Program-made: the position numbers and the translations under genes | Assembly (NCBI RefSeq): GCF_947493125.1 | Contig: NZ_CANLQB010000001.1 | Span: forward strand, 558,001-622,000 | Direction: 5' to 3' | Length of the DNA: 64,000 nt | Source: an uncultured Roseobacter sp. | GTDB lineage: Bacteria > Pseudomonadota > Alphaproteobacteria > Rhodobacterales > Rhodobacteraceae | Part shown: positions 40,025 through 53,122 of the stretch, in pieces | Layout of the letters: every line of letters starts with the position of its first letter | How positions within the stretch are numbered: the first letter of the stretch is position 1 | The notes under the pieces: generated by a model | Databases searched by the model: none | What the model was told of the DNA's origin: nothing | What the model saw: the letters and a program-made list of their open reading frames with translations, nothing else

Positions 40025-40450
40025 TCAGCGCAACACGGTGCCGCCCAACAGCAGCGCATGAGTGTGTTCGGGCAGCTGGCCCAACTGTTCGAAGAAGCGG
40101 ATGAAGTCGAAGGCCGGATAGCTTTCCGCCTTCTTGTCGCCGTCAAAGCGCAGCATGATCTGCTGGTGGACCTTCATCGGCGCGCCGGTGGCCGCGTTGC
40201 GGCAGGTGATTTCCAGCATGGCGCTGATCCAGTCGCCCTCCTCGATCGAATGCAGGATGGTCACGTGGATGTCGGTCACGAAGCTGCGCAGGACGGACAC
40301 CCATTCGCGGATCTCGGAGGGCTCTATCCCGAAGCCCTGTGCGATGTGTTGAGTGTGCGTGGTGTCGAGAAAGTAGTCCTCGATCACCTCCAGCCGACCC
40401 TCTTCCCAGACGGCGGTGTACCACTCTCTCAGAATGTCGGTTTTGGTCAC
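40025..40450 (-). CDS. SnoaL/NTF2-like protein
   Basis: A 141-aa single-domain protein of the NTF2-like superfamily. The pattern REWYTAVWEEGRLEVIEDYF at the N-terminus and the strand pairs VHQQIMLRFDGDKKAESYPA and FDFIRFFEQLGQLP match SnoaL-like ester cyclases and limonene-epoxide-hydrolase folds. The enzymatic role is unassigned. It begins about 80 bases downstream of the tmRNA 3' end and may be read from its promoter. Confidence 0.8.
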   Translation of the reverse strand: MTKTDILREWYTAVWEEGRLEVIEDYFLDTTHTQHIAQGFGIEPSEIREWVSVLRSFVTDIHVTILHSIEEGDWISAMLEITCRNAATGAPMKVHQQIMLRFDGDKKAESYPAFDFIRFFEQLGQLPEHTHALLLGGTVLR

Positions 40451-40529
40451 AGCGCAGGCCTGCTCTATCTCTGCCTAAAGATTAACACAGGCGGATTGAG
40501 GAAGGTTTAACGGTGCGGGTGGGGGAGGC

Positions 40530-40842
40530 GAAGTGCAGGCTTCTGTTGCCAGGTGCCTGCGAACCCCGCCTAGTGCTGCAAGGCGCTAGGGCTTAAGATT
40601 TCGGAAGCTCCGACTGCTTACGCAGCCATTGCCGCCGGTGCACGATTGTCATTTGCAATTGTACGTTTTGAACCGATAACGGTGGTATCTCACCGAAACA
40701 AAGCTAACCCCTTTAGACGTTCGTCGATCCTGTTTCGGCCCCATGATCCCCAAATGAAGGATGTGTGGTGGAGCCGCCGGGTACCGCCCCCGGGTCCGAT
40801 CCGCTTATTACGAGCGCGTTTATGTCCATAGTTCCGAAGAAC
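40530..40842 (-). ncRNA. ssrA: tmRNA, permuted two-piece form
   Basis: The minus strand carries the alphaproteobacterial permuted tmRNA. First comes the acceptor piece ending GGTACCCGGCGGCTCCACCA (CCA end at 40766); then a 23-base intervening segment (40743-40765); then the coding piece starting GGGGCCGAAACAGGATCGAC at 40742. The acceptor stem GGGGCCG pairs with CGGCTCC over seven bases. The tag frame (40656-40618) encodes ANDNRAPAAMAA then TAA, matching the Rhodobacterales ANDN..AA degron. Downstream, CCTAGCGCC/GCACTAGG and a GCAGGC/GCCTGC hairpin (40535-40560) supply pseudoknot/terminal stems. Outer ends (about 40842 and 40530) are approximate. It rescues stalled ribosomes with SmpB. Confidence 0.96.
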
Positions 40843-40848
40843 ACTCGA

Positions 40849-40877
40849 CATATAAGGCGATGGGCGGGAAATCTCAA
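40849..40877 (-). promoter_or_regulatory. sigma-70 promoter of ssrA
   Basis: On the minus strand TTGAGA (40877-40872) and TATATG (40854-40849) are separated by exactly 17 bases, near consensus for a housekeeping promoter. The predicted transcript start near 40842 gives a short 5' precursor on the acceptor piece. Confidence 0.8.
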
Positions 40878-40978
40878 GGGGAATGCGGCGTACGGTGGTT
40901 TTGAGCACAGCGCAACAGGGAAATTCGAATCGCCATATAGATCAAGGGTTAACGAGGCTTTTTTGACGTAAATCCAAC

Positions 40979-41028
40979 GTCGGTATAACGTCGGTATTCT
41001 GTCGGTATCGCGTCGGTGGACTGTCGGT
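40979..41028. repeat. five GTCGGT hexamers spaced exactly 11 bp
   Basis: GTCGGT occurs at 40979, 40990, 41001, 41012 and 41023. The linkers vary (ATAAC, ATTCT, ATCGC, GGACT), so only the hexamer and its 11-bp period are conserved. All copies face one side of the helix, about 135-185 bases upstream of the predicted ssrA start. It looks like a cooperative protein-binding array. Confidence 0.75.
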
Positions 41029-41060
41029 GTGCGCCCGGGGTTAACAGCGCGCGCGCTGTC

Positions 41061-41414
41061 TCAGGTGAGGTTCGCGCCGAGGAAGGCCGCGGCGAGGGCC
41101 GCCTCGATGCCGCCGAAGATCAGCACCTTTCGGCGGGGCGGATCGTCGAAGAGCAACGACAGGGCGCGCCCCAGCGCCGCGCCGACAAAGGCAAAACCGA
41201 TCATCGCATAGGCCAGCGGTTCGTCGAGCCAGAGCGCCGCCGCTCCCGCCACCACGAACAAGCCCCCCACCGACGCACGCATTTCGCTGAGACCCATCGT
41301 GCTCTCGGTCGGTGCGAGATCCAGCGCCGCCGCGGTGTACCGCGGGGCGAGAAAGCCGAAGAGCCCAAAGCCGATGGTCAGAAGGCTTGCGGAGAGGTTA
41401 AGAACGTCCACCAT
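41061..41414 (-). CDS. DUF4345-type small membrane protein
   Basis: A 117-aa protein with four hydrophobic helices (residues ~5-25, 45-62, 66-85, 97-115) and the pattern PTESTMGLSEMRASVGGLFV seen in DUF4345 proteins. Function unknown. Its stop is 32 bases from the 11-bp repeat array. Confidence 0.75.
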   Translation of the reverse strand: MVDVLNLSASLLTIGFGLFGFLAPRYTAAALDLAPTESTMGLSEMRASVGGLFVVAGAAALWLDEPLAYAMIGFAFVGAALGRALSLLFDDPPRRKVLIFGGIEAALAAAFLGANLT

Positions 41415-41452
41415 GTCGGCGGACCTAGGTTGTGCCGGGCGGCTGGCAAGCC

Positions 41453-42187
41453 TTAGTTCAGCACCACCGGTTCAGGCCGGCCCATGCGGCAGAGATCGCA
41501 GATGCGCACCGCTTCGGTGATCCCCATTTCCGCCAGCGCCCGGAAGTCGGGCAGGGCGTAGGCATCGGCGGCGCTCAGATCCACCTCATAGCCGAGGTCC
41601 TGAAAGGAGGCGATGGAGAGGCGGCTGATCGGACGTGCGGCCCCCGACAGAAAGCCGGTGAGGAGTTCGTCGCCGAAGATGAGTTCGCGCCAGTGCCCCT
41701 CGCGCGTGCCCGCGCCGCCGGTGTTGGCGATGGGGACGGCCGCACCGGTGCCACCCAGAGCGCGGTATTCGCGGGTCGACCCCGGCCCGGTGAAGCGGGG
41801 ATCATTGGTCCCACTAGCCTGGATCAGCCCCGCGCGCGCCCAGAGCGTGCCGAAGCCCAGCACATGGGCCATCTCGTGCAGCACCACATCTTCGAAACTG
41901 GCGTTGGCCTCGAGCCGTTCGACGTCAGCGGTGTCGAACTGCATGATGCCCGCAACCGGCAGTTCGGAGCCGGGCCGCAGGGCGGTGGGGCCGGCCTGGC
42001 CCAGCACGCCCTCCGGACCGTCGATCGGGGCGATGGAGACCTCGATGAGTACACCGTCGAGGCGGCGCCCTTCGAAGGTCACCGGCGCGAAGGCGGTCTC
42101 GATGATCGCATCCCAGCGATCCGCTGCGCGGGCGAAGGCGCCCCGGCGGGCGTCGGAAATCGGGGTGGTGAAGTCGAGTGTGATCAT
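41453..42187 (-). CDS. leishmanolysin-like zinc metalloprotease
   Basis: A 244-aa protein. The metzincin zinc site LHEMAHVLGFG (HExxHxxGF, near residues 102-112) is clear, followed by TLWARAGLI and the region GGAGTREGHWRELIFGDELL and SIASFQDLGYEVD, which recall peptidase M8 (leishmanolysin) and pre-pro-metalloproteases. I chose the ATG at 42187, with GAGG six bases upstream; a longer frame extends upstream but is compositionally odd. No signal peptide is visible with this start, which is unusual for a metzincin. Confidence 0.82.
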   Translation of the reverse strand: MITLDFTTPISDARRGAFARAADRWDAIIETAFAPVTFEGRRLDGVLIEVSIAPIDGPEGVLGQAGPTALRPGSELPVAGIMQFDTADVERLEANASFEDVVLHEMAHVLGFGTLWARAGLIQASGTNDPRFTGPGSTREYRALGGTGAAVPIANTGGAGTREGHWRELIFGDELLTGFLSGAARPISRLSIASFQDLGYEVDLSAADAYALPDFRALAEMGITEAVRICDLCRMGRPEPVVLN

Positions 42188-42483: not shown

Positions 42484-43215
42484 CTAGCGGCGGGCGGCGC
42501 GCGCGGCGAAAACGCTCTGGGCCAGCGTCTGGGTTTCCTGCTCCAGCGCCGTCAGCGCCTCCGCCGTGGCTATAGCATCCTGTGCTTCGATGGCGTCGGC
42601 GATGCCTTCGTGCAGCGCGATGATGCGGGCGCGGTCGCGGGCGGTGAAGGTGATCATGTTCATCAGCGGCTGCATGGCCTCGACGGCGCCCGCCAATTGA
42701 TAGGACAGCACCGGGTTTCCGGCCCCGTCGACCAGCGCGCGGTGAAAGGCCACATCGGAGGCGCAGAAGGCCTCATCGGTCAGCCCCGGCTGGCCCTGGC
42801 GGTGGATCTCGGCGCGCATGGTGGCCAGGTGATCGGGGGAGCGGCGCGCCGCCGAGAGCGGGGCACAGGCGCGTTCCAGCGCGTAGCGCGCCTCGCAGGC
42901 GGTCTCGAAGCTCACCGCGTTCATGCTGAGCAGCAGCGTCGAGGTGGTGATCTGCTGCGGCTGCGCGGCCTCGAAGCTGAGCCGGTTCACGAAGGCCCCG
43001 CCGGTGGCCCCGCGCTGGGTGCGGATCAATGACTGCGCGGCGAGCCGTTTCAGCGCCTCGCGCACCGTGGGACGGGAGACGTCGAAATGATCGGCCAGCT
43101 CGGCCTCGGAGGGCAGGCGTTCATCGACGATGAGGCTGCCGGAGATGATCGCATCGCGGATGGCCCCCGCAATCTGAGCAGAGAGGTCGGCGGGTTTCGA
43201 GGGGTCGATTTTCAT
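42484..43215 (-). CDS. GntR/FadR-family transcriptional regulator
   Basis: A 243-aa regulator. Its winged helix (LPSEAELADHFDVSRPTVRE then ALKRLAAQSLIRTQRGATGG) lies near residues 34-75, and an FCD ligand domain follows with metal-binding His/Asp in ASDVAFHRALVDGAGNPVL. It is divergent from the DUF2182-dmdA-acuI operon, with two matching operator-like boxes in the gap. A GntR gene beside dmdA is a known arrangement in roseobacters, so it probably controls DMSP demethylation genes. Confidence 0.93.
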   Translation of the reverse strand: MKIDPSKPADLSAQIAGAIRDAIISGSLIVDERLPSEAELADHFDVSRPTVREALKRLAAQSLIRTQRGATGGAFVNRLSFEAAQPQQITTSTLLLSMNAVSFETACEARYALERACAPLSAARRSPDHLATMRAEIHRQGQPGLTDEAFCASDVAFHRALVDGAGNPVLSYQLAGAVEAMQPLMNMITFTARDRARIIALHEGIADAIEAQDAIATAEALTALEQETQTLAQSVFAARAARR

Positions 43216-43261
43216 ATGTCTTACATTTAGTGTTTGCCCGTTTTCTAAATGTCTGGCATTT
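43216..43261. promoter_or_regulatory. two FadR-type operator boxes
   Basis: ATGTCTTACAT (43216-43226) and ATGTCTGGCAT (43249-43259, within the palindrome AAATGTCTGGCATTT) share ATGTCTKRCATTT. Their centres are 33 bp apart, three helical turns. They occupy the 71-bp gap between the regulator and the DUF2182 gene. Confidence 0.7.
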
Positions 43262-43286
43262 GGATCGCAAGGACAAGGGAGGATTC

Positions 43287-44060
43287 ATGCACGGCACCCT
43301 GCGCACCACGCTCTGGCTGGGCTTTTTCGCCGCCATTCTGGCGTCGTGGTGGGTGATGTATGTGATGAGCGTCGATATGGACCTCGATCTGCTGGGCCGT
43401 CCGGGGCCACAGGGGCAGATGATGGCGGCGATGGACCCGCGCATGCCCATGTATATGCCGATGGCCAATTTCGGGCCGCTCTTCTGGATGTGGGCGATCA
43501 TGATGGCGGCGATGATGGGGCCGACGCTGGTGCCGACCCTGCGGGCCTACGAAGACCTGATGGTCAGTGCGAACGGCACGCGCGCGGGATGGCTGGGCGT
43601 GCTGTTGGGGTATTTTATTGTCTGGGTGGGGTTCGCCGCGGTGATCACCGGCGCGCAGCTGGCGCTGCTCTTTGGTGGTGTGGTGGACATGCTGGGCATT
43701 GCGCACAGCCCGTGGGTCGCCGGCGGATTGCTGCTGGCTGTGGGGGCGTTCCAGTTCACGCGGGCCAAGGAAATCTGCCATGGTGTCTGCCATGCGCCCG
43801 CGATGTACTTTCTGGGGCATTGGCGCACCGGCTTTGCGGGCGGGCTGCGCATGGGGCTGGGCCTGGGTGCCTTCTGTGTCGGCTGCTGCTGGGGGTTCAT
43901 GTCTCTGGGGTTTGTGGGCGGCGTGATGAACCTCGCGTGGATGGGTCTTGCGACGCTCTTCATGGTGATCGAGAAGCTGCCTCAGGTGGGGCATTACGTG
44001 ACAAAACCCATGGGCGTGCTGCTCTGCGCGGCGGGGCTCTATGTGATGATCGGAGGATAG
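43287..44060 (+). CDS. DUF2182 predicted metal-binding membrane protein
   Basis: A 257-aa inner-membrane protein with about six helices. The family pattern appears as FQFTRAKEICHGVCHAPAMY (residues ~160-178), GLRMGLGLGAFCVGCCWGFM (~190-210) and FVGGVMNLAWMGLATLFMVI. Cys/His clusters (ICHGVCH, FCVGCC, plus Met-rich MAAMDPRMPMYMPM) suggest copper or another soft metal. The ATG follows AGGGAGGA. Three bases separate it from the DUF1326 gene, a pairing repeated in other proteobacteria. Confidence 0.9.
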   Translation: MHGTLRTTLWLGFFAAILASWWVMYVMSVDMDLDLLGRPGPQGQMMAAMDPRMPMYMPMANFGPLFWMWAIMMAAMMGPTLVPTLRAYEDLMVSANGTRAGWLGVLLGYFIVWVGFAAVITGAQLALLFGGVVDMLGIAHSPWVAGGLLLAVGAFQFTRAKEICHGVCHAPAMYFLGHWRTGFAGGLRMGLGLGAFCVGCCWGFMSLGFVGGVMNLAWMGLATLFMVIEKLPQVGHYVTKPMGVLLCAAGLYVMIGG

Positions 44061-44063
44061 GAT

Positions 44064-44771
44064 ATGGCCAAGAACAGACGCAGCGACGCGGATCGCTTGC
44101 CGATTTCGCAGCGCATCGACCAGCGGATGCCGAACCCCAAGCGGCGCGACATGAGCCCGACGGAATGGGCGATCAAAGGCGAGCTGTTTCTGAATTGCTC
44201 CTGCACCGTATTCTGCCCCTGCGTGGTCAGTCTCGGGGCGCATCCTCCGACGGAGGGGCATTGCCACGCCTGGATGGCGATTGCCATTGACGAGGGGCAC
44301 TACGAGGGGGAAGACCTGGGTGGTCTGAACATCGGGCTGCTCGTCGACATACCGGGGCGTATGGGCGAGGGGAACTGGAAGGTCGCCGCCTACGTGGATG
44401 AGCGCGCGACGGGCAAGGCCTACAACGGGATTCTGCAGATTTTTAGCGGTGCTGCGGGCGGGACCACGGGGCTGTTCACCATGTTGGTCTCCGAGATCAT
44501 CGGGGCGGAGCGCGCGCCGGTCGAGATCGTGCGCGAGGGCAACCGGCGGTCGATCATGATCGGGCGCAAGATTCAGGGCGAGATCGAGATGCTGGCGGGC
44601 AGCGATCCTGCGCATCCGGTCATGGTGAGCAATTCGAAGTATTGGATGGGCCCGGACATCATCGCGGCCACAGGGCTAAAGAGCCGGGTGCGCGACTACG
44701 GCCGCGTCTGGGATTTTGGTGGGAAATCGGCCGAGATCTGCCCGATTGACTGGAAAGGCCCCAAGCCGTGA
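44064..44771 (+). CDS. DUF1326 domain protein
   Basis: A 235-aa soluble protein. After a basic N-terminal 30 residues, WAIKGELFLNCSCTVFCPCV shows the DUF1326 cysteine cluster CxC...CxC near residues 45-53. Further family segments are EGHCHAWMAIAIDEGHYEG, NIGLLVDIPGRMGEGNWKVA and GGTTGLFTMLVSEIIGAER. The cysteines could bind a metal. It overlaps the DinB gene (GTGA) and follows DUF2182, implying a shared task. Confidence 0.9.
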   Translation: MAKNRRSDADRLPISQRIDQRMPNPKRRDMSPTEWAIKGELFLNCSCTVFCPCVVSLGAHPPTEGHCHAWMAIAIDEGHYEGEDLGGLNIGLLVDIPGRMGEGNWKVAAYVDERATGKAYNGILQIFSGAAGGTTGLFTMLVSEIIGAERAPVEIVREGNRRSIMIGRKIQGEIEMLAGSDPAHPVMVSNSKYWMGPDIIAATGLKSRVRDYGRVWDFGGKSAEICPIDWKGPKP

Positions 44772-45271
44772 TCGATCCGGCCTATGCGCAGATGATGGCG
44801 CGCTACAATGCCTGGCAGAACGATTGGCTTTTTGCAGCGGTCGATGGGCTGGACGAGGCGGCGCGCGAGGCCGACCGGGGCCTGTTCTGGGGCTCGATCC
44901 GCGCCACGCTGAGCCATCTGATGTGGGGGGATCTGATGTGGATGTCCCGCTTTGACGGCGGTGAGCGGCCCGCACGGCCACTGAATGAGACCGGCGATGC
45001 CTATGGCTGGCCCGAGCTGCGGGCGGAGCGCCCTGTTGCGGACGCGCGCATCACGCGCTGGGCTGCGGGTCTCGCAGAGGGTGCCTTTGGCGCCGATCTG
45101 AGCTGGTGGTCCGGCGCGGCAGGGCGGGAGATGTCCGAGCCTTACGCGCTGTGCGTGGTGCATTTTTTCAACCACCAGACCCATCATCGCGGGCAGGTGC
45201 ACGCAGCCCTGACGGCGCTTGGGGTCAAAACCCAGGACACCGATATTCCCTTCCTGCCAGAGGATGCCTGA
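44768..45271 (+). CDS. DinB-family putative metal-dependent hydrolase/transferase
   Basis: A 167-aa four-helix-bundle protein. The N-terminal MMARYNAWQNDWLFAAVDGL and histidines in LSHLMWGDLMW and NHQTHHRGQVHAAL form the triple-His metal site of DinB/YfiT. Relatives use metal with thiols such as bacillithiol, mycothiol or glutathione. GTG start overlaps DUF1326; dmdA begins two bases after its stop. Confidence 0.92.
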   Translation: MIDPAYAQMMARYNAWQNDWLFAAVDGLDEAAREADRGLFWGSIRATLSHLMWGDLMWMSRFDGGERPARPLNETGDAYGWPELRAERPVADARITRWAAGLAEGAFGADLSWWSGAAGREMSEPYALCVVHFFNHQTHHRGQVHAALTALGVKTQDTDIPFLPEDA

Positions 45272-45272
45272 G

Positions 45273-46376
45273 ATGGCGCTGATTTCTCCGTCGCGGCGGT
45301 TGCGCCGCACGCCGTTCTCCGCAGGCGTCGAGGCGGCGGGCGTGAAAGCCTACACGATCTACAATCACATGCTGTTGCCCACGGTGTTCGAGAGCATTGA
45401 GGCGGACTATCATCACCTGAAAAAGCATGTGCAGGTCTGGGATGTCGCCGCCGAGCGACAGGTGGAGTTGCGGGGTCCGGATGCGGCGCGGCTGATGCAG
45501 ATGCTGACCCCGCGCGATCTGCGCGGCATGCTGCCGGGGCGGTGCTTCTATGTGCCTATCGTCGATGAGACGGGCGGGATGCTGAACGATCCGGTGGCTG
45601 TGAAGCTGGCCGAGGACCGCTGGTGGATTTCCATTGCAGATTCGGACCTGCTGCTCTGGGTGAAGGGCATCGCCAATGGCTGGCGGCTGGACGTTTTGAT
45701 CGACGAGCCGGATGTCTCGCCGCTGGCCGTGCAGGGACCCAAGGCGGAGGACCTGATGGCGCGGGTCTTCGGCGACGGTATTCGCGATGTGCGCTTTTTC
45801 CGCTTCGGGTTGTTCGAGTTCGAGGGGCGGGATCTGGCGGTGGCGCGCTCGGGTTATTCCAAGCAGGGCGGGTTCGAGATTTATGTCGAAGGCAGTGATC
45901 TGGGCATGCCGCTGTGGAATGCGCTTTTCAAAGCCGGTGAGGATCTGAACGTGCGCGCGGGCTGCCCGAACGCCATCGAGCGGATCGAGGGCGGGCTCCT
46001 GAGCTATGGCAACGACATGACCGATGACAACACGCCGCATGAATGCGGGCTGGGGCGGTTCTGCGACACGCAGACGGCCATCGGCTGTATCGGGCGCGAT
46101 GCGCTCTTGCGCGTGGCCAAGGAGGGGCCTGTGCAGCAGGTGCAGGCGATTGCGATTGATGGGGATCCGGTGCCGGGCTGCGACCGGGTCTGGCCGCTCT
46201 ATGGTGGGGGCCGCCGGGTGGGCCAGGTGACCTCGGCCGCCTGGAGCCCGGATTTCGAGACCAATGTGGCCATCGGCATGGTGCGCATGACACATTGGGA
46301 CAGCGGCACCGAGCTGGAGGTGGAGACGCCCCTGGGCATGCGCCGGGCGGTGGTGCAGCCTGGGTTCTGGGCGTGA
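45273..46376 (+). CDS. dmdA: dimethylsulfoniopropionate demethylase
   Basis: A 367-aa tetrahydrofolate-dependent enzyme of the GcvT fold that demethylates DMSP to methylmercaptopropionate. The N-terminus ISPSRRLRRTPFSAGVEAAG, the region AYTIYNHMLLPTVFESIEAD, SGYSKQGGFEIYVEGSDLGM and LLSYGNDMTDDNTPHECGLG closely follow the roseobacter DmdA form, which differs from plain GcvT. Starts two bases after the DinB stop. Together with acuI this marks a DMSP-degrading marine bacterium. Confidence 0.95.
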   Translation: MALISPSRRLRRTPFSAGVEAAGVKAYTIYNHMLLPTVFESIEADYHHLKKHVQVWDVAAERQVELRGPDAARLMQMLTPRDLRGMLPGRCFYVPIVDETGGMLNDPVAVKLAEDRWWISIADSDLLLWVKGIANGWRLDVLIDEPDVSPLAVQGPKAEDLMARVFGDGIRDVRFFRFGLFEFEGRDLAVARSGYSKQGGFEIYVEGSDLGMPLWNALFKAGEDLNVRAGCPNAIERIEGGLLSYGNDMTDDNTPHECGLGRFCDTQTAIGCIGRDALLRVAKEGPVQQVQAIAIDGDPVPGCDRVWPLYGGGRRVGQVTSAAWSPDFETNVAIGMVRMTHWDSGTELEVETPLGMRRAVVQPGFWA

Positions 46377-46398
46377 GCCAGGCAGCGACGGCTGCGCT

Positions 46399-46423
46399 AT
46401 TGAGTATTTTTGGAAGGGTGAAG
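46399..46423 (+). repeat. intergenic repeat, copy 2 (ATTGAGTATTTTTGGAAGG motif)
   Basis: Second copy of the 25-base element also found at 22770-22794, with one substitution. It lies between dmdA and acuI and again follows a GC dyad (CAGC-GACG-GCTG, upstream at about 46383-46394). Confidence 0.6.
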
Positions 46424-46468
46424 CGGGGGCGGACTGCGCCTCGCGGCCCGAAAAACAGGAGATGAGCG

Positions 46469-47461
46469 ATGTTCAAGGCACTTGTGGTGAGCAAGGATGA
46501 AGAGAGCGGCAAGACCTCTGCGGCTGTCGAGGAGATCGACGTGGACCGCCTGCCCGCGGGGGATGTGACTGTTGCGGTGGAGTATTCCACGGTGAACTAC
46601 AAGGATGGCTTGTGCATCGGGCCGGGTGGCGGGTTGGTCCGGCAGTATCCGCATGTGCCGGGCATTGATTTTGCGGGCACGGTGGAGGCGTCGGACGATG
46701 ATCGTTATGCGCCTGGCGACAAGGTGGTGCTGACCGGCTGGCGCGTGGGTGAGGTGCATTGGGGCGGCTATGCGCAGAAGGCGCGGGTCAGGGCCGACTG
46801 GTTGGTGCCGCTGCCCGAGGGCTTGGACACGCGTCAGGCGATGGCGGTGGGGACCGCCGGGTTCACCGCGATGCTGGCGGTGATGGCGTTGGAAGATCAC
46901 GGGCTGAAGGCCGGTGACGGGCCGGTGCTGGTGACCGGGGCTGCGGGCGGCGTGGGCTCGGTGGCGACGGCGATACTTGCGCATCTGGGCCATGAGGTGG
47001 CGGGTGTCACCGGGCGGCCCGACACGGCGGAGTATTTGAAGAGCCTTGGCGCCAGCCAGGTCGTGGCGCGGGAGCAGATCAACGAGACGGTGAAGCGCCC
47101 GCTGGAGGCGGAGACCTGGGCTGCTTGCGTCGATGCCGTGGGCGGCGCGATGCTGGCGCGGGTGCTGGGGCAGATGAAGTATGGCGGTTCAGTTGCGGCG
47201 GTGGGTCTTGCCGGGGGCGCGGGGCTGCCTGCGACGGTCATTCCCTTCCTGCTGCGCGGCGTGAACCTGCTGGGCATCGACAGCGTGATGCAGCCCTATG
47301 ACAACCGGGTGCGGGCGTGGAGCCGGATCGCCAGCGATCTGCCGATGGACAAGCTGGAGGCGATGGTTCAGCCCGCGACGCTCTCCGATCTGCCGCAGCT
47401 GGGTGCGGACATTCTGAAAGGTCAGGTCAAGGGGCGTGTGGTTGTCGATGTGAATGGCTGA
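46469..47461 (+). CDS. acuI: acryloyl-CoA reductase AcuI
   Basis: A 330-aa NADPH-dependent medium-chain dehydrogenase/reductase without the zinc ligands. It converts acryloyl-CoA to propionyl-CoA, detoxifying the product of DMSP cleavage. YSTVNYKDGLCIGPGGGLVR, VPGIDFAGTVEAS, VLVTGAAGGVGSVA (nucleotide-binding) and LLRGVNLLGIDSV match the YhdH/AcuI group. It follows dmdA after 92 bases, the usual roseobacter pair. Confidence 0.95.
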   Translation: MFKALVVSKDEESGKTSAAVEEIDVDRLPAGDVTVAVEYSTVNYKDGLCIGPGGGLVRQYPHVPGIDFAGTVEASDDDRYAPGDKVVLTGWRVGEVHWGGYAQKARVRADWLVPLPEGLDTRQAMAVGTAGFTAMLAVMALEDHGLKAGDGPVLVTGAAGGVGSVATAILAHLGHEVAGVTGRPDTAEYLKSLGASQVVAREQINETVKRPLEAETWAACVDAVGGAMLARVLGQMKYGGSVAAVGLAGGAGLPATVIPFLLRGVNLLGIDSVMQPYDNRVRAWSRIASDLPMDKLEAMVQPATLSDLPQLGADILKGQVKGRVVVDVNG

Positions 47462-47466
47462 ACCCG

Positions 47467-48240
47467 GTGCGCGGGATCGGGTCGGACGAAGCGCCCATCG
47501 CTGTCATTGCGGATGTACATGGTAACAGCGATGCGTTGCGTGCTGTGCTGGCTGATATTGACGCGCAGGGCATCGGCCCGATCCTGAACCTTGGCGATCA
47601 TTTCAGTGGGCCGCTGGCGGCGGCGGAGACGGCGGCTCTGATGGCCGCACGCGAGATGATCTGTATTCGTGGCAATCATGATCGCTGGCTCGTCGAATAG
47701 GCACCGGAGGACATGGGGCCTTCGGATCGGGTTGCTTACGCGCAGCTGCAGCCGTCGCATCTGGACTGGCTGCGCGGATTGCCTGCGACCCGGCGAGTGG
47801 GGGAGGCCATCTTTATGTGCCATGGGACGCCCACCAGTGACACCACCTATTGGCTGGACCGCGTCGCGCCAACGGGTGAAGTGCAGTTTCGCCCACGCGA
47901 CGAGATCGAGCAGGCCGCGGAGGGGACGGACGCACCGGTCCTGCTCTGTGGGCATACCCATCGCCCGCGGCTGGTGCGGCTGCGCGATGGTCGCATCATC
48001 CTGAACCCCGGCAGCGTGGGCCTGCCTGCCTATGATGACGATCATCCCGTCTTTCACGTGATGGAAACCGGGACACCTGCGGCGTCCTACGCTGTGCTGT
48101 GCAAACGGGGCGGCGGCTGGGACGTGAGCTTTCGCGCCGTGCCTTACGACACCGCCCGTATGGCGGAGATGGCAGATGCGGCGGGGCGGGCCGACTGGGC
48201 GCGGGCTGTCGCCACGGGGTGGTTTTCGCCCGACAGATAA
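47467..48240 (+). pseudogene. metallophosphoesterase gene interrupted by an in-frame TAG
   Basis: One frame encodes a calcineurin-like phosphoesterase: IAVIADVHGN (DxH), LNLGDHFSGP (GDxx), IRGNHDRW (GNHD), then CHGTP, CGHTHRPRLVRL (GHTH) and LNPGSVGLP. A TAG at 47698-47700 splits it just after GNHDRWLVE; coding resemblance resumes at once in the same frame (APEDMGPSDRVAYAQLQ). A CAG-to-TAG change would explain it. GGAGG before the ATG at 47713 might allow re-initiation of the 175-aa C-part, but the active site needs both halves. I take the start as GTG at 47467, five bases after acuI. Confidence 0.8.
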
Positions 48241-48278: not shown

Positions 48279-50132
48279 TTATTCTGCCGGCTGCGCGTCG
48301 GGGTCGCCCACGGTCATGCCCGCTTTCTCGCGGCGGCTGTCATTGAAGAGCGCCTTGATCAGCGCGAAGACCATCAGCACCATGACCATGGTGAAGGGCA
48401 GGGCACCGACGATCATCGCGTCCTGCAGGGGCGCCAGCGCGTCGGCGTTATTGGGATCGATCGCTCCTGCCACGATCAGGCTGCCGATCACGAAGGTGAG
48501 GATCAGGCCCCAGATGATACGGTGCTTGATACCCGTTTCTTGATCGCCGCCCGACATGATGGTGTTCATCACCAGGATGCCTGAGTCCGCCGAGGTGACC
48601 AGGAAGGTCATGATCAGCACCACGCACATGATGATCACCGCACCTTGCAGCCATTCCGGCACGATCATCTGCAGCGAGACGAAGAGCTTGTTGGTGTTGG
48701 AGGCGGCGATGATCGCGCCGTCGGCCACGCCCTGCAGTTCGTTGTTGATGGCGGTGCCGCCCAGGATGGTGAGCCAGGCAAAGCAGACCAGCGCCGGGGC
48801 AATGACGCAGCCGAAGATGAACTCGCGTACCGTGCGGCCCTTGGAGATGCGGGCGAGGAACAGGCCCACGAAGGGTGAAAACGCGATCCACCAGGCCCAG
48901 TAGAAGGTGGTCCAGCCCGATTGCCAGCCAAAGAGGCGGCCTTGGGTGCCCGCCTCGTAAGCGGCGGCCTGGGCGGCGGGTGCGAGGGCTGCAGCGTCGC
49001 CTTCGAGGCCGGAGACAAAGCCGTCGAAGCTGCCCCAGGCGTTGGTGGCACCGCTGTAGAGGCTGCCTGCGACGGGCTGCGCCTCGGCGGGCAGGGCGGC
49101 GGTGTAGGTGGCCTCGGAGAGCGGGCTGTAGGCCTCGAAGCTCAGCGGGATGAAGTTCCAGATGTAATCCGCCAGCGCTGTGCCATAGGTCGTCAGCGAG
49201 AAGAGGAACGAGCCGAAGACGATGAAGGTGAGCAGCAGCAAAAGCGACAGCACCAGGTTGAGGTTCGACAGGTATTTGATGCCGCGCCCGACGCCGGAGA
49301 CGGCGGAGAGGATCGACATGCCCATGATGATCGCCAGCGCCGTGATCAGGCCCACGGTGGACGGTTTTGCGGCCTCGCCTTCGGCGGCAGCGCCCATCAG
49401 CCACTCCATGCCGGTGGCATTGTAGACACCATCGACAAACTGGCTGACCCCGTAGCCGATGGTGACGGCAACGCCGAGGATCGTGGCGACCACGCCGAGC
49501 ACGTCCACGATATGGCCCAGGACCCCGTTGGCCAGGCGCCCCAGAAGCGGGGTCAGGGCCGAGCGGATGGTGAGCGGCATGTCACGGGTATAGGCGTAAT
49601 AGGCGAGGCTGAGCCCTGTGACCACATAGATGGCCCAGGCGTGAAAGCCGAAGTGCAGCAGGGAATAGCGGAAGGCCGATTGCACGGCCTCGGCGGAGTT
49701 GGGCTCAGCCCCCTGTGCCACGATCACCGGGTTGGAGCCCCAGAGGCCCACTGGCTCTGCGGTGGCGAACACCATGAGCCCCACGCCAAGACCGGCGCCG
49801 AACATCATGGCGAACCACGAAAAGGTGGTGAATTCGGTCTGGGTATCGGGCCCGCCGAGCTTGCGCTTGCCGACCGGCAGGATCGCCACGATGAACAGAA
49901 AGAAGGCAAAGAAGCCCACGGAGATGATGTAGAAGGCGTTGAAGTCCTGCAGGGTGGCCCAGTTCCACGCATCGAGCGTTTGCGTGGCTCCGATGGGGAA
50001 CAGGATGGCCCAGAGCACCAGCGCCACCATCACCGATTTTGAAATCAGCGCGATGGGCAGGCTGTAGCCTTCGTAAAAGCCGGAGTCCTGGGTGTTGATG
50101 TCCAGCTCCGTAAACGGCGGTTTGACTGACAT
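48279..50132 (-). CDS. BCCT-family betaine/choline/DMSP-type transporter
   Basis: A 617-aa secondary transporter with 12 TM helices. Family signatures are FTTFSWFAMMFGAGLGVGLM, AVTIGYGVSQFVDGVYNATG and SGWTTFYWAWWIAFSPFVGL. The frame extends far upstream, but conservation begins at MSVKPPFTELDINTQDSGFY (start 50132). BCCT carriers import quaternary ammonium or sulfonium osmolytes. Location next to dmdA-acuI makes DMSP or glycine betaine likely. A C-terminal tail ends PDAQPAE. Confidence 0.93.
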   Translation of the reverse strand: MSVKPPFTELDINTQDSGFYEGYSLPIALISKSVMVALVLWAILFPIGATQTLDAWNWATLQDFNAFYIISVGFFAFFLFIVAILPVGKRKLGGPDTQTEFTTFSWFAMMFGAGLGVGLMVFATAEPVGLWGSNPVIVAQGAEPNSAEAVQSAFRYSLLHFGFHAWAIYVVTGLSLAYYAYTRDMPLTIRSALTPLLGRLANGVLGHIVDVLGVVATILGVAVTIGYGVSQFVDGVYNATGMEWLMGAAAEGEAAKPSTVGLITALAIIMGMSILSAVSGVGRGIKYLSNLNLVLSLLLLLTFIVFGSFLFSLTTYGTALADYIWNFIPLSFEAYSPLSEATYTAALPAEAQPVAGSLYSGATNAWGSFDGFVSGLEGDAAALAPAAQAAAYEAGTQGRLFGWQSGWTTFYWAWWIAFSPFVGLFLARISKGRTVREFIFGCVIAPALVCFAWLTILGGTAINNELQGVADGAIIAASNTNKLFVSLQMIVPEWLQGAVIIMCVVLIMTFLVTSADSGILVMNTIMSGGDQETGIKHRIIWGLILTFVIGSLIVAGAIDPNNADALAPLQDAMIVGALPFTMVMVLMVFALIKALFNDSRREKAGMTVGDPDAQPAE

Positions 50133-50411: not shown

Positions 50412-51635
50412 ATGACACTTGATACAGATTTCGTCCGCCGCCAGTTTCCCGCTTTTGACGTGCCCCAGCTTCAGGGGCAGGCGTTCTTCGAGAATGCCGG
50501 CGGCTCCTATACCTGCCGTCCGGTGATCGACCGGCTGACGCGGTTCTATACCGAGCGGAAGGTGCAGCCCTATGTGCCCTATGAGGCGAGCCGACTTGCG
50601 GGAGAGGAGATGGACGAGGCGCGCCGCCGCCTCTCGGCGATCCTTGGGGTGGAGGGCGATGAGCTGAGCTTTGGGCCGTCGACCACGCAGAACACGTACG
50701 TGCTCGCACAGGCCTTTGCCGAGATGATGCAGCCGGGTGAGGCCATCGTGGTCACCAATCAGGATCACGAGGCGAATTCGGGGCCGTGGCGGCGGCTCGC
50801 GGCGCGCGGCATCGAGATCCGGGAATGGCAGCTGGACCCGGAGACGGGGCATCTGGACCCGGCGGATCTGGAAGAGCTGCTCGATGACAGCGTGCGGCTG
50901 GTGTGTTTTCCGCATTGCTCGAACGTGGTGGGCGAGATCAACCCGGTGACGGAGATCACCGCGCTGGCCCATGCGGCGGGGGCCTTCACCTGTGTGGACG
51001 GGGTGTCCTATGCGCCGCACGGGCTGCCCGATGTGGGCAGCCTGGGGCCGGATATTTATCTCTTCTCGGCTTATAAGACCTATGGGCCGCATCAGGGGCT
51101 GATGGTGATCCGCCGCACTCTGGGGCAGCTGTTGCCCAACCAGGGGCACCATTTCAACGGGGATGTGCTGTACAAGCGGTTCACGCCGGCAGGGCCGGAT
51201 CATGCCCAGGTGGCCGCCTGTGCGGGCATGGCGGACTATGTCGATGCGCTCTTTGAGCATCATGTGGGTGGGGCAGCGGAGCCGGTCGAGAAGGGCCGTG
51301 CGGTGCATGATCTGATGCGCGCGCATGAAATCGCATTGCTTGCGCCGCTTTTGGAGGCGGTGAAGGCGCGCAATTCTGTGCGCCTGATTGGGCCTTCCGA
51401 GGCGGAGGGGCGTGCGCCGACCGTGGCGCTGGCGCTGGAGCGCCCGGGTGAAGAGGTGGCGGCAGCGCTGGCCGCGCAGGGCGTCATGGCGGGTGGCGGG
51501 GACTTCTACGCCGGCCGCCCGCTCGATGCGATGGGGGTGGATGCGGAAAAAGGCGTGCTGCGTCTGAGCTTTACCCATTACACGACGCAGAGAGACATCG
51601 ACCAGCTGCTCACAGCGCTTGACGATGTTTTGTAG
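50412..51635 (+). CDS. class V aminotransferase / cysteine desulfurase-like protein
   Basis: A 407-aa PLP enzyme. ATG at 50412; AFFENAGGSYTCRPVIDRL at the N-terminus, NQDHEANSGPWRRLAARGIE, VDGVSYAPHGLPDVGSLGPD and the PLP lysine in LFSAYKTYGPHQG (~K222) are typical of the Csd-type family. The active-site cysteine loop of true desulfurases is not apparent (C-terminal region GVMAGGGDFYAGR lacks Cys), so lyase or isopenicillin-epimerase-like activity is as likely. Confidence 0.9.
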   Translation: MTLDTDFVRRQFPAFDVPQLQGQAFFENAGGSYTCRPVIDRLTRFYTERKVQPYVPYEASRLAGEEMDEARRRLSAILGVEGDELSFGPSTTQNTYVLAQAFAEMMQPGEAIVVTNQDHEANSGPWRRLAARGIEIREWQLDPETGHLDPADLEELLDDSVRLVCFPHCSNVVGEINPVTEITALAHAAGAFTCVDGVSYAPHGLPDVGSLGPDIYLFSAYKTYGPHQGLMVIRRTLGQLLPNQGHHFNGDVLYKRFTPAGPDHAQVAACAGMADYVDALFEHHVGGAAEPVEKGRAVHDLMRAHEIALLAPLLEAVKARNSVRLIGPSEAEGRAPTVALALERPGEEVAAALAAQGVMAGGGDFYAGRPLDAMGVDAEKGVLRLSFTHYTTQRDIDQLLTALDDVL

Positions 51636-51675: not shown

Positions 51676-51703
51676 TTGAAACGAATTGCAAAGGCTGTGC
51701 TGT

Positions 51704-53122
51704 GTGAGCGTGTCTCCTGTTCTTGTGTGGTTTCGCCGTGATCTGCGGCTGAGCGACCATCCGGCCATGTCCGCGGCCTGCGACAGCGGGCGCCCCGTGA
51801 TCCCGGTCTTCATACATGACGGTGGCGTTGCGGCGCTGGGCGCGGCGCCGAAATGGCGGTTGGGGCTGGGGCTGGAGTGCTTCGATGCGGCGCTGCGCGA
51901 GAAGGGCAGCCGGCTGATCCTGCGCCGGGGCGATGCGCTGGAGATGCTGCAGGCGCTGATCGCAGAGACGGGTGCGGAGGCGGTCTACTGGTCGCGGCTC
52001 TATGATCCCGAGGCGGTGAAACGCGATACGGGTGTGAAATCGGCTCTGAAAGAGGCGGGAGTGGAGGCCAAGTCCTTCGGCGGGCATCTGATGTTTGAGC
52101 CCTGGACGGTCGAGACCAAGACCGGCGGGTTTTACAAGGTCTACACGCCCTTCTGGAACATGGTGAAGACGCGCGAGGTGGAGGCACCGCTGTCTGCGCC
52201 CTCGGATATTCCCGCGCCGGAGTCCTGGCCCGAGAGCGACGCCCTGGCCGATTGGCGCCTGGAGGCTTCGATGGATCGCGGAGCGGCGGTGGTGCGCCCC
52301 CATGTGCGGCTGGGTGAACAGGCGGCGCAGTCCCGGCTCGGGGCCTTTATCGCGCAGATTGTCGCGCGCTACGACACGACGCGCGACCTGCCCAGCGTCG
52401 ATGGCACCTCCGGGCTGTCGGAAAACCTGAGCCTGGGTGAGATCAGCCCGCATCAATGCTGGCATGCCGGGATGCGGGCGCGCGAAGACGGCAAACCGGG
52501 GGCGGAGACCTTCCTGAAAGAGCTGGTCTGGCGTGAGTTTGCCTATCATCTGATGCACCACACGCCGCAGCTGCTGACGGGCAACTGGAAGGAAGACTGG
52601 GATGCCTTCCCCTGGAATCAGGACGAGCGCCGCGCCGAGGTGCAGCGCTGGAAACAGGGGCGCACCGGCATCCAGTTTGTCGATGCGGCGCTGCGCGAGA
52701 TGTATGTGACCGGGCGGATGCACAATCGGGGGCGCATGATCGTGGCGAGCTATCTGACCAAGCACCTGCTGTGTCACTGGAAGATCGGGCTGAAGTGGTT
52801 CGAGGACTGCCTGATCGACTGGGACCCGGCCAGCAACGCCATGGGCTGGCAGTGGTCCGCAGGCTCGGGCCCGGATGCCACGCCGTATTTCCGGGTGTTC
52901 AATCCTGTGACCCAGCTCGACAAGTTCGACAAGGACCGCACCTATGTGCGCCGCTGGATCGCAGAGGGGCGCAAGACCCCGTCCGAGGAGGCGTTGGCCT
53001 ACTTCGATGCGGTGCCGCGCAGCTGGGGGCTCGACCCCGGGAATGCCTATCCGGAACCGGTCGTTGCGGCGGATGAGGGCAGGCAACGGGCACTCGCGGC
53101 CTATGAGAACCGTGGATTTTAG
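51704..53122 (+). CDS. phrA: deoxyribodipyrimidine photolyase
   Basis: A 472-aa class I CPD photolyase. An alpha/beta antenna domain (LVWFRRDLRLSDHPAMSAAC) precedes the helical FAD domain with FLKELVWREFAYHLM, GRTGIQFVDAALREMYVTGR then MHNRGRMIVASYL and WDPASNAMGWQWSAGSGPDA. The tryptophans for electron transfer to FAD are present. GTG at 51704 is preferred, AAAGG upstream; a TTG 18 bases earlier is possible. In R. sphaeroides phrA belongs to the singlet-oxygen RpoE regulon, consistent with the promoter here. Confidence 0.95.
   Translation: MSVSPVLVWFRRDLRLSDHPAMSAACDSGRPVIPVFIHDGGVAALGAAPKWRLGLGLECFDAALREKGSRLILRRGDALEMLQALIAETGAEAVYWSRLYDPEAVKRDTGVKSALKEAGVEAKSFGGHLMFEPWTVETKTGGFYKVYTPFWNMVKTREVEAPLSAPSDIPAPESWPESDALADWRLEASMDRGAAVVRPHVRLGEQAAQSRLGAFIAQIVARYDTTRDLPSVDGTSGLSENLSLGEISPHQCWHAGMRAREDGKPGAETFLKELVWREFAYHLMHHTPQLLTGNWKEDWDAFPWNQDERRAEVQRWKQGRTGIQFVDAALREMYVTGRMHNRGRMIVASYLTKHLLCHWKIGLKWFEDCLIDWDPASNAMGWQWSAGSGPDATPYFRVFNPVTQLDKFDKDRTYVRRWIAEGRKTPSEEALAYFDAVPRSWGLDPGNAYPEPVVAADEGRQRALAAYENRGF

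Follow-up and report, generated by a model that had tools for sequence, protein, structure and literature searches.

The stretch of DNA analyzed here, hereafter the window, comprises 64,000 nucleotides from an uncultured Roseobacter sp. (assembly GCF_947493125.1, contig NZ_CANLQB010000001.1, positions 558,001-622,000, forward strand). It carries the gene of the dimethylsulfoniopropionate (DMSP) demethylase DmdA and, immediately ahead of it, a cassette of three genes encoding a DUF2182, a DUF1326 and a DinB-superfamily protein (Table 1). With a DmdA equivalog followed on one strand by an acrylyl-CoA reductase gene, the window holds a dmdA-acuI operon, and its AcuI, at 430.4 bits, falls about 10 bits short of the 440-bit threshold of the AcuI equivalog NF051456. 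The DUF2182 stop (44060) is followed after 3 base pairs (bp) by the DUF1326 ATG (44064), the DUF1326 stop (44771) overlaps the DinB start codon (GTG, 44768) by 4 bp, and a single bp separates the DinB stop (45271) from the dmdA ATG (45273). All gene calls of an earlier sequence-only reading, which had described the three-gene set ahead of dmdA-acuI with these 3-, -4- and 1-bp junctions, were upheld. The likely DUF2182 start is the ATG at 43287, preceded by AGGGAGGA, a good ribosome-binding site. DUF2182 scores 193.6 bits on PF09948, above the curated Pfam threshold of 28.7, and DUF1326 scores 173.9 bits on PF07040 (cut-off 25). The GntR regulator gene adjoins the cassette, as had been read, but it is divergent and therefore lies outside the cassette transcript.

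Table 1. Genes and operator-like sites of the dmdA-acuI region in the window
Feature	Position	Strand	Match or remark
GntR/FCD-family regulator	42484-43215	-	PF07729 FCD 5.7e-19, PF00392 GntR 6.7e-18; divergent from cassette
Paired operator-like sites TGTCTTACA (43217-43225) and TGTCTGGCA (43250-43258)	43217-43258		Between GntR and DUF2182; TGTCnGACA, at most 1 mismatch
DUF2182/PpoB2-family membrane protein, 257 amino acids	43287-44060	+	PF09948 'PpoB2, copper chaperone' 4.2e-57
DUF1326 protein, 235 amino acids, CxCxxxCxC and a fifth invariant Cys	44064-44771	+	PF07040 4.7e-51
DinB-superfamily protein, 167 amino acids, optional cassette member	44768-45271	+	PF05163 3.0e-19
DmdA, DMSP demethylase	45273-46376	+	NF009133 equivalog, 693.7 bits, cut-off 410
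AcuI, acrylyl-CoA reductase	46469-47461	+	TIGR02823, 453.9 bits, cut-off 297.25

In order to place this arrangement, 80 species-level dmdA loci were found with DmdA (79-96% identical; the best 80 of at least 587). DUF2182 followed by DUF1326 lay upstream of dmdA in 71 of them, 45 of these also with DinB, and the cassette is thus the usual state and not, as the sequence-only reading had it, an insertion between GntR and dmdA-acuI. Nor was a GntR gene adjoining dmdA, which that reading took for the known roseobacter arrangement, at all common: GntR directly beside dmdA and followed by acuI was seen at only five loci. The order GntR, DinB, dmdA, acuI occurred once, and three loci had none of the upstream genes, two of which start dmdA at most 1.3 kilobases (kb) from a contig end. 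In Ruegeria pomeroyi the GntR gene presumably stands directly beside dmdA, a layout from which the 71 loci with DUF2182-DUF1326 ahead of dmdA differ. DinB was present at 46 loci, in one case (L018) after dmdA. At L050, L160 and L161, DinB lies upstream of dmdA-acuI without DUF2182 or DUF1326, and it therefore has its own tie to the operon.

Loci collected by DmdA are uninformative on cassettes without dmdA, and these were therefore covered by a set of 198 genomes, each representing a different genus of the family. DUF1326 was found in 106 genera and dmdA above cut-off in 84; 71 genera carried both, 13 only dmdA, 35 only DUF1326 and 79 neither (p 1.6e-14, uncorrected for phylogeny). In 64 of the 84 dmdA-bearing genera, a DUF1326 gene precedes dmdA on the same strand by no more than 6 kb. 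The 123 DUF1326 copies of the survey comprise 64 linked to dmdA, 22 with acuI within 8 kb and no adjacent dmdA, and 37 with neither gene nearby, the loci of 26 of which were examined. For 13 genera (4 + 9) the position of acuI beside the cassette was read from individual loci. Altogether acuI lies within 8 kb of 78 of the 86 linked cassettes (48 + 8 with dmdA and the 22 without adjacent dmdA), and 20 of the 22 acuI-only genera have no dmdA over cut-off in the genome, the other two having it elsewhere. The cassette tracks acuI (78/86 linked) at least as well as dmdA (64/86). The sequence-only reading had proposed a survey of co-occurrence with dmdA and regarded a cassette found equally often without that gene as evidence against its proposal. 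Linkage to dmdA is borne out in most dmdA genera, but the 22 acuI-only genera run counter to it, and the cassette is indeed often found without dmdA, though then mostly with acuI.

The same survey was used for the DMSP lyases, with the 86 linked genera as the cassette set (adding three neighbourless copies of the DUF1326 clade described below alters little). The lyase DddP passed its cut-off in 116 of the 198 genera, the cupin lyase family in 81. Of the 114 genera that lack dmdA, 20 have the cassette, and DddP was present in 16 of these versus 33 of the 94 others (odds ratio 7.4, p 3e-4), an association that fits a role in DMSP/acrylate metabolism not needing demethylation. The cupin lyases showed no significant difference in these genera (10/20 versus 30/94, p 0.13).

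The region between GntR and the cassette contains two TGTCnGACA sites, and the pair, allowing one mismatch per site, recurs in 76 of 79 distinct GntR-DUF2182 regions, the count left after 21 short-flank loci and identical sequences were dropped from an initial 98 of 102. It was also found in seven of eight GntR-dmdA and both GntR-DinB regions, in neither of two GntR-acuI regions, and in 1.3% of 462 control segments, which were taken from fixed places in the loci irrespective of intergenic status. In its own genome the window pair is the sole match of the searched pair pattern. Single sites in the window are near chance (27 versus 20.7 expected), and therefore only the conserved pair carries weight. 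Another candidate operator, TTTAG...CTAAA, was dropped, as it occurred nowhere but in the window and its own copy. The GntR protein of the window presumably binds the paired sites, and the cassette is probably transcribed with dmdA and/or acuI under this divergent regulator. Ruegeria pomeroyi has the same core of dmdA followed by acuI, and passages of PMC3338564 report that acrylate raises its expression about 12-fold and DMSP about 14-fold, that reporter fusions are uninduced by methylmercaptopropionate (MMPA), and that acuI gives acrylate resistance. The combination of dmdA with a GntR gene is also treated in the literature, e.g. in passages of PMC4334477.

A DUF1326 tree was built by a quick method from 125 rows thinned from 155, with flagged long branches among the outgroup rows; the window's own locus (L001) and L082-L111, whose flanks were too short to label, were kept out of the tree and of the counts of residues and gene order. 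One clade of 78 rows, with a support of 99 and a long stem, takes in all 71 linked rows, and none of the 47 rows outside it is linked. The seven unlinked rows of the clade are two at contig ends (L114 and L133), one real exception with DinB but no acuI (L115), and four from other families (L175, L188, L189 and L190). Gene order divides in a similar manner: DUF2182 precedes DUF1326 in 105 of 107 high-scoring copies, while among 47 lower-scoring copies DUF1326 comes first in 31, DUF2182 in two, and 14 have no same-strand partner. The DUF1326-DUF2182 pairs elsewhere in the Alphaproteobacteria belong to the same two families and keep the same invariant Cys and Met residues, but differ in their mostly reversed order and in the lack of linked acuI or dmdA in rows outside the clade. 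No consistent partner of these distant pairs emerged among 70 neighbours scanned, in which 25 of 116 families were viewed, or among 18 of 32 operonic neighbours checked singly; the commonest family among the 70 was an alpha/beta-hydrolase, with four. At L173 a gene of the glutathione-dependent formaldehyde-activating family (L173:5523-5930) is a close same-strand neighbour of a distant DUF1326, possibly a thiol link. In the deepest in-family rows, L130 and L138, GntR and the gene pair share one strand, acuI is divergent and dmdA is missing. This arrangement weakly hints that dmdA joined an older GntR/DUF2182/DUF1326/acuI locus.

The ratio of nonsynonymous to synonymous substitution rates (window versus L002-L004) is 0.05-0.13 for the three cassette genes and 0.04-0.05 for dmdA; judged by these ratios, all three cassette genes are under purifying selection. 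In favour of passive hitch-hiking, in which the neighbourhood is kept by descent without any functional tie to DMSP, other window neighbours (the genes at 50412-51635 and 51686-53122) are also often kept. It is nevertheless a very improbable explanation for the cassette, the linkage of which persists down to about 60% identity for DUF1326 and 39% for DUF2182, which has tight junctions and operator-like sites, and which stays with acuI while dmdA comes and goes across scattered parts of the tree.

The conserved residues of the cassette proteins may point to the type of chemistry involved. In an alignment of 140 gathered DUF2182 copies (100 linked and 40 other, with PpoB2 of Marinomonas itself outside the alignment), M53, M68, M72, M76, M77, C164, C168, C197, C200, C201, M205 and E229 are kept at 100%. 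This Met/Cys set and the DUF1326 cysteines given next would suit a soft metal as Cu(I)-like ligands, and the MxxxM spacing recalls the CTR-type copper channels. C45, C47, C51, C53 and C67 of DUF1326 are kept at 98-100% in 155 copies, as are H50, H136 and H140 of DinB in 62 linked copies; the three histidines are presumably the metal site of the family. The sequence-only reading had named the CHGVCH motif of DUF2182, the DUF1326 cysteines and the DinB histidines as probable metal ligands. Conservation agrees with this for the latter two and for the cysteines of CHGVCH, kept in 100/100 linked and 40/40 other copies, but not for its histidines, kept in only 57/100 linked copies and 1/40 others. 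From its conserved residues, the DinB protein is probably metal- or thiol-dependent, and some members of the DinB superfamily presumably have thiol S-transferase activity.

Of the proteins in the Pfam family of DUF2182, passages of PMC2855505 describe PpoB2 of Marinomonas mediterranea (PF09948/COG5486), which is encoded in a two-gene operon and reported to transfer copper to tyrosinase. There the partner is the tyrosinase PpoB1, while here it is DUF1326. No tyrosinase or other known cuproenzyme was found among the operon genes, the neighbours of DUF2182 being DUF1326, DinB, DmdA and AcuI.

AlphaFold2 models were obtained for DUF2182, which is helical with a predicted local distance difference test (pLDDT) score of 90, and for DUF1326 (pLDDT 80). 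A fold search with DUF2182 gave no match below E 0.001, and searches by sequence for solved relatives gave none for DUF2182 or DinB and none convincing for DUF1326 (best E 0.46), for which we know of no function. In Foldseek, DUF1326 matched acetoacetate decarboxylase-like proteins (best E 1.7e-5), with a template modelling (TM) score of about 0.39 at best among the matches listed, below the 0.5 taken to mark the acetoacetate decarboxylase global fold. Since the linked genes work on C3 acids or CoA esters, these matches could also suggest an enzyme with a metal-thiolate active site in an acetoacetate-decarboxylase-like barrel, acting on a C3 acid or CoA ester with DUF2182 as its membrane partner. 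We consider such an enzyme quite unlikely. The matches with E below 0.001 have query-normalised TM scores of only 0.31-0.39 and root mean square deviations of 10-16 Å, a partial resemblance, no lysine is among the DUF1326 residues kept at 90% in both groups, and DUF1326 has no known enzyme activity.

The sequence-only reading proposed a metal- or thiol-dependent step co-regulated with DMSP demethylation, perhaps handling methanethiol or a metal cofactor. On this view the cassette would serve methanethiol or demethylation chemistry itself, with methanethiol or MMPA as the substrate. The position of DUF1326 upstream of dmdA in 64 of 84 dmdA genera agrees with this, as does an acyl-CoA synthetase of subfamily PRK08162 that lies between DUF1326 and dmdA at L209, L211 and, judged by its place and length, L210; the same subfamily stands as a dmdB-like gene beside dmdA at L152. 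However, 22 genera have the cassette by acuI without adjacent dmdA, 20 of them without any dmdA over cut-off, and it is absent from the five loci at which dmdA adjoins dmdB-like and/or dmdD-like genes (L152, L153, L158, L165 and L171; the L152 genes were scanned, the others assigned by cluster membership). Such a role is therefore unlikely. The genomes of L165 (G128) and L171 (G158) carry DUF1326 elsewhere. In the clade rows L188 and L190 (family f37) the gene pair is likewise followed by a PRK08162 acyl-CoA synthetase, and at L188 a DddP-like gene (387 bits, cut-off 600) lies close by.

A further possibility is that the cassette delivers copper to one cuproenzyme, chiefly the methanethiol oxidase MtoX (SBP56), which would enable oxidation of demethylation-derived methanethiol. 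The membership of DUF2182 in the PpoB2 family, the Cu dependence of MtoX described in passages of PMC5739008 and an MtoX gene in the window's own genome (585.9 bits) are in line with such a role. MtoX was identified in 68 of the 198 genera, and in genera without dmdA it is weakly associated with the cassette (7/20 versus 11/94, p 0.017). Among dmdA carriers, by contrast, it does not track the cassette (39/66 with versus 11/18 without, odds ratio 0.92), and 13 of the 20 dmdA-less cassette genera have no MtoX. In many bacteria, moreover, mtoX adjoins its own SCO1/SenC copper-chaperone gene, according to the same passages. Because of the missing association in dmdA carriers, copper supply to MtoX was rejected as the main role, and cuproenzyme delivery of this kind is improbable. 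In one genus MtoX lies about 2 kb or less from DUF1326, on the side away from dmdA, and in another without DUF1326 it is directly downstream of dmdA (G043:C11 and G066:C1 are listed for both cases). What stands of the metal- or thiol-dependent step proposed earlier is a conserved, probably co-regulated DMSP-linked set with soft-metal ligands; its specificity for demethylation or methanethiol does not, given the cassettes that adjoin acuI without adjacent dmdA and the behaviour of MtoX.

The reading that we favour, and put forward tentatively, is that DUF2182 and DUF1326, with DinB where present, are an accessory module of the acrylate/DMSP operon that would provide soft-metal (Cu(I))/thiol protection under acrylyl-CoA stress. 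Its parts differ in strength. Comparison of loci gave the gene arrangement, the shared operator-like sites, the signature of purifying selection, the linkage to acuI and dmdA and the invariant soft ligands; the arrangement is strong evidence in itself, and the cassette very probably represents one regulated accessory module of this operon. From these features we infer transcription as a single unit, binding by GntR, which metal is involved, which way it is transported, and a tie to acrylate toxicity. A connection to acrylate/acrylyl-CoA rather than methanethiol is rather likely, and soft-metal or thiol chemistry is similarly on the probable side. Copper in particular is plausible while falling slightly short of probable, and protection during electrophile stress is rather doubtful. 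The cassette would most likely do its job with AcuI, in coping with thiol-reactive acrylate and acrylyl-CoA from DMSP catabolism. Acrylyl-CoA may alkylate glutathione and protein thiols and so free soft metal; the five-cysteine site of DUF1326 could then take up Cu(I), or protect a thiol, while DUF2182, a membrane protein rich in Met and Cys, could hand the metal on, either through the membrane or along it. For DinB, a function as a thiol S-transferase on the electrophile is possible.

Several observations weigh against this role of the module. Twenty of the 84 dmdA genera have no linked DUF1326, and in a class-wide draw a linked DUF1326 was found in one of 22 dmdA-bearing genomes outside the family versus four of four inside; the genus-level tests carry no correction for phylogeny. 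No acuI lies within 8 kb of eight of the 64 cassettes linked to dmdA (some contigs are short), and L115, which has the full DUF2182-DUF1326-DinB set, lacks acuI and dmdA alike. In dmdA carriers, DddP shows no association with the cassette (53/66 with versus 14/18 without), the cupin lyases are not significantly tied to it in any stratum, and three of the 20 cassette genera that lack dmdA have lyases of neither type. None of the 18 loci at which no GntR gene was detected has the site pair, and L130 and L138 have one site only; regulation is therefore not common to all. As to copper, no copper genes were among the reported neighbours of the distant DUF1326-DUF2182 pairs, and the assignment would follow from residue types and from the single member of the family that has been studied.

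The genes flanking the region were also inspected. Downstream of acuI, a metallophosphoesterase-like gene (47467-48240, + strand) forms one frame with an internal stop at 47698-47700, its Pfam match covering the second part, and is possibly a pseudogene or a sequence error. It is followed by a BCCT-family transporter gene (48279-50132, - strand; 1.6e-140). BCCT-like genes (31-44% identity) recur near cassette/acuI loci without dmdA, e.g. L112, L121 and L122, in line with a dddT-like neighbour noted in passages of PMC3338564. Beyond GntR, SnoaL-like, DUF4345 and leishmanolysin-like (M8) genes occupy 40025-42187 (- strand), and SnoaL-like and DUF4345-like genes recur near many of the 80 dmdA loci.

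The sequence-only reading suggested an undescribed DMSP-linked system. No paper was found under DUF2182, DUF1326, PF07040 or PF09948 in the literature searched, which excludes most subscription papers, but the DUF2182 family is already in print as COG5486/PpoB2, as passages of PMC2855505 show. The words 'hypothetical' and 'unknown function' are absent from the main text of PMC3338564, passages of which mention no such genes. In Rhodobacter sphaeroides, acuI is likewise part of a regulated DMSP/acrylate operon, acuR-acuI-dddL; that operon differs in having three genes including the DMSP lyase gene dddL, and DUF2182 and DUF1326 are unnamed in the literature entry for it (PMC3017554). It is a somewhat unlikely possibility, on present comparisons, that the DUF1326 and DUF2182 proteins in this clade make up a new system dedicated to acrylate defence or conversion. 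In it, a cytosolic metal-thiolate protein would be paired with a Met/Cys membrane partner, DinB would be an optional thiol transferase, and the whole would supply a missing function in the DMSP catabolism of most roseobacter genera that carry dmdA.

Much work on ocean sulfur cycling has gone into the dmdA-acuI operon; in 64 of the 84 dmdA genera of the family, however, it is accompanied by little-studied genes. If R. pomeroyi, with the GntR-dmdA adjacency that we assume for it, lacks the cassette, this would explain why the cassette was overlooked. The distinct clade of DUF1326 and the operator-like sites already allow the question to be tested. An otherwise familiar pathway of ocean sulfur may have an additional part, two genes that are probably copper- or thiol-related and apparently under the same regulator. 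If a role in acrylate or copper tolerance is true, the cassette may have a share in setting a cell's capacity for DMSP and the choice between methanethiol and dimethyl sulfide as the product.

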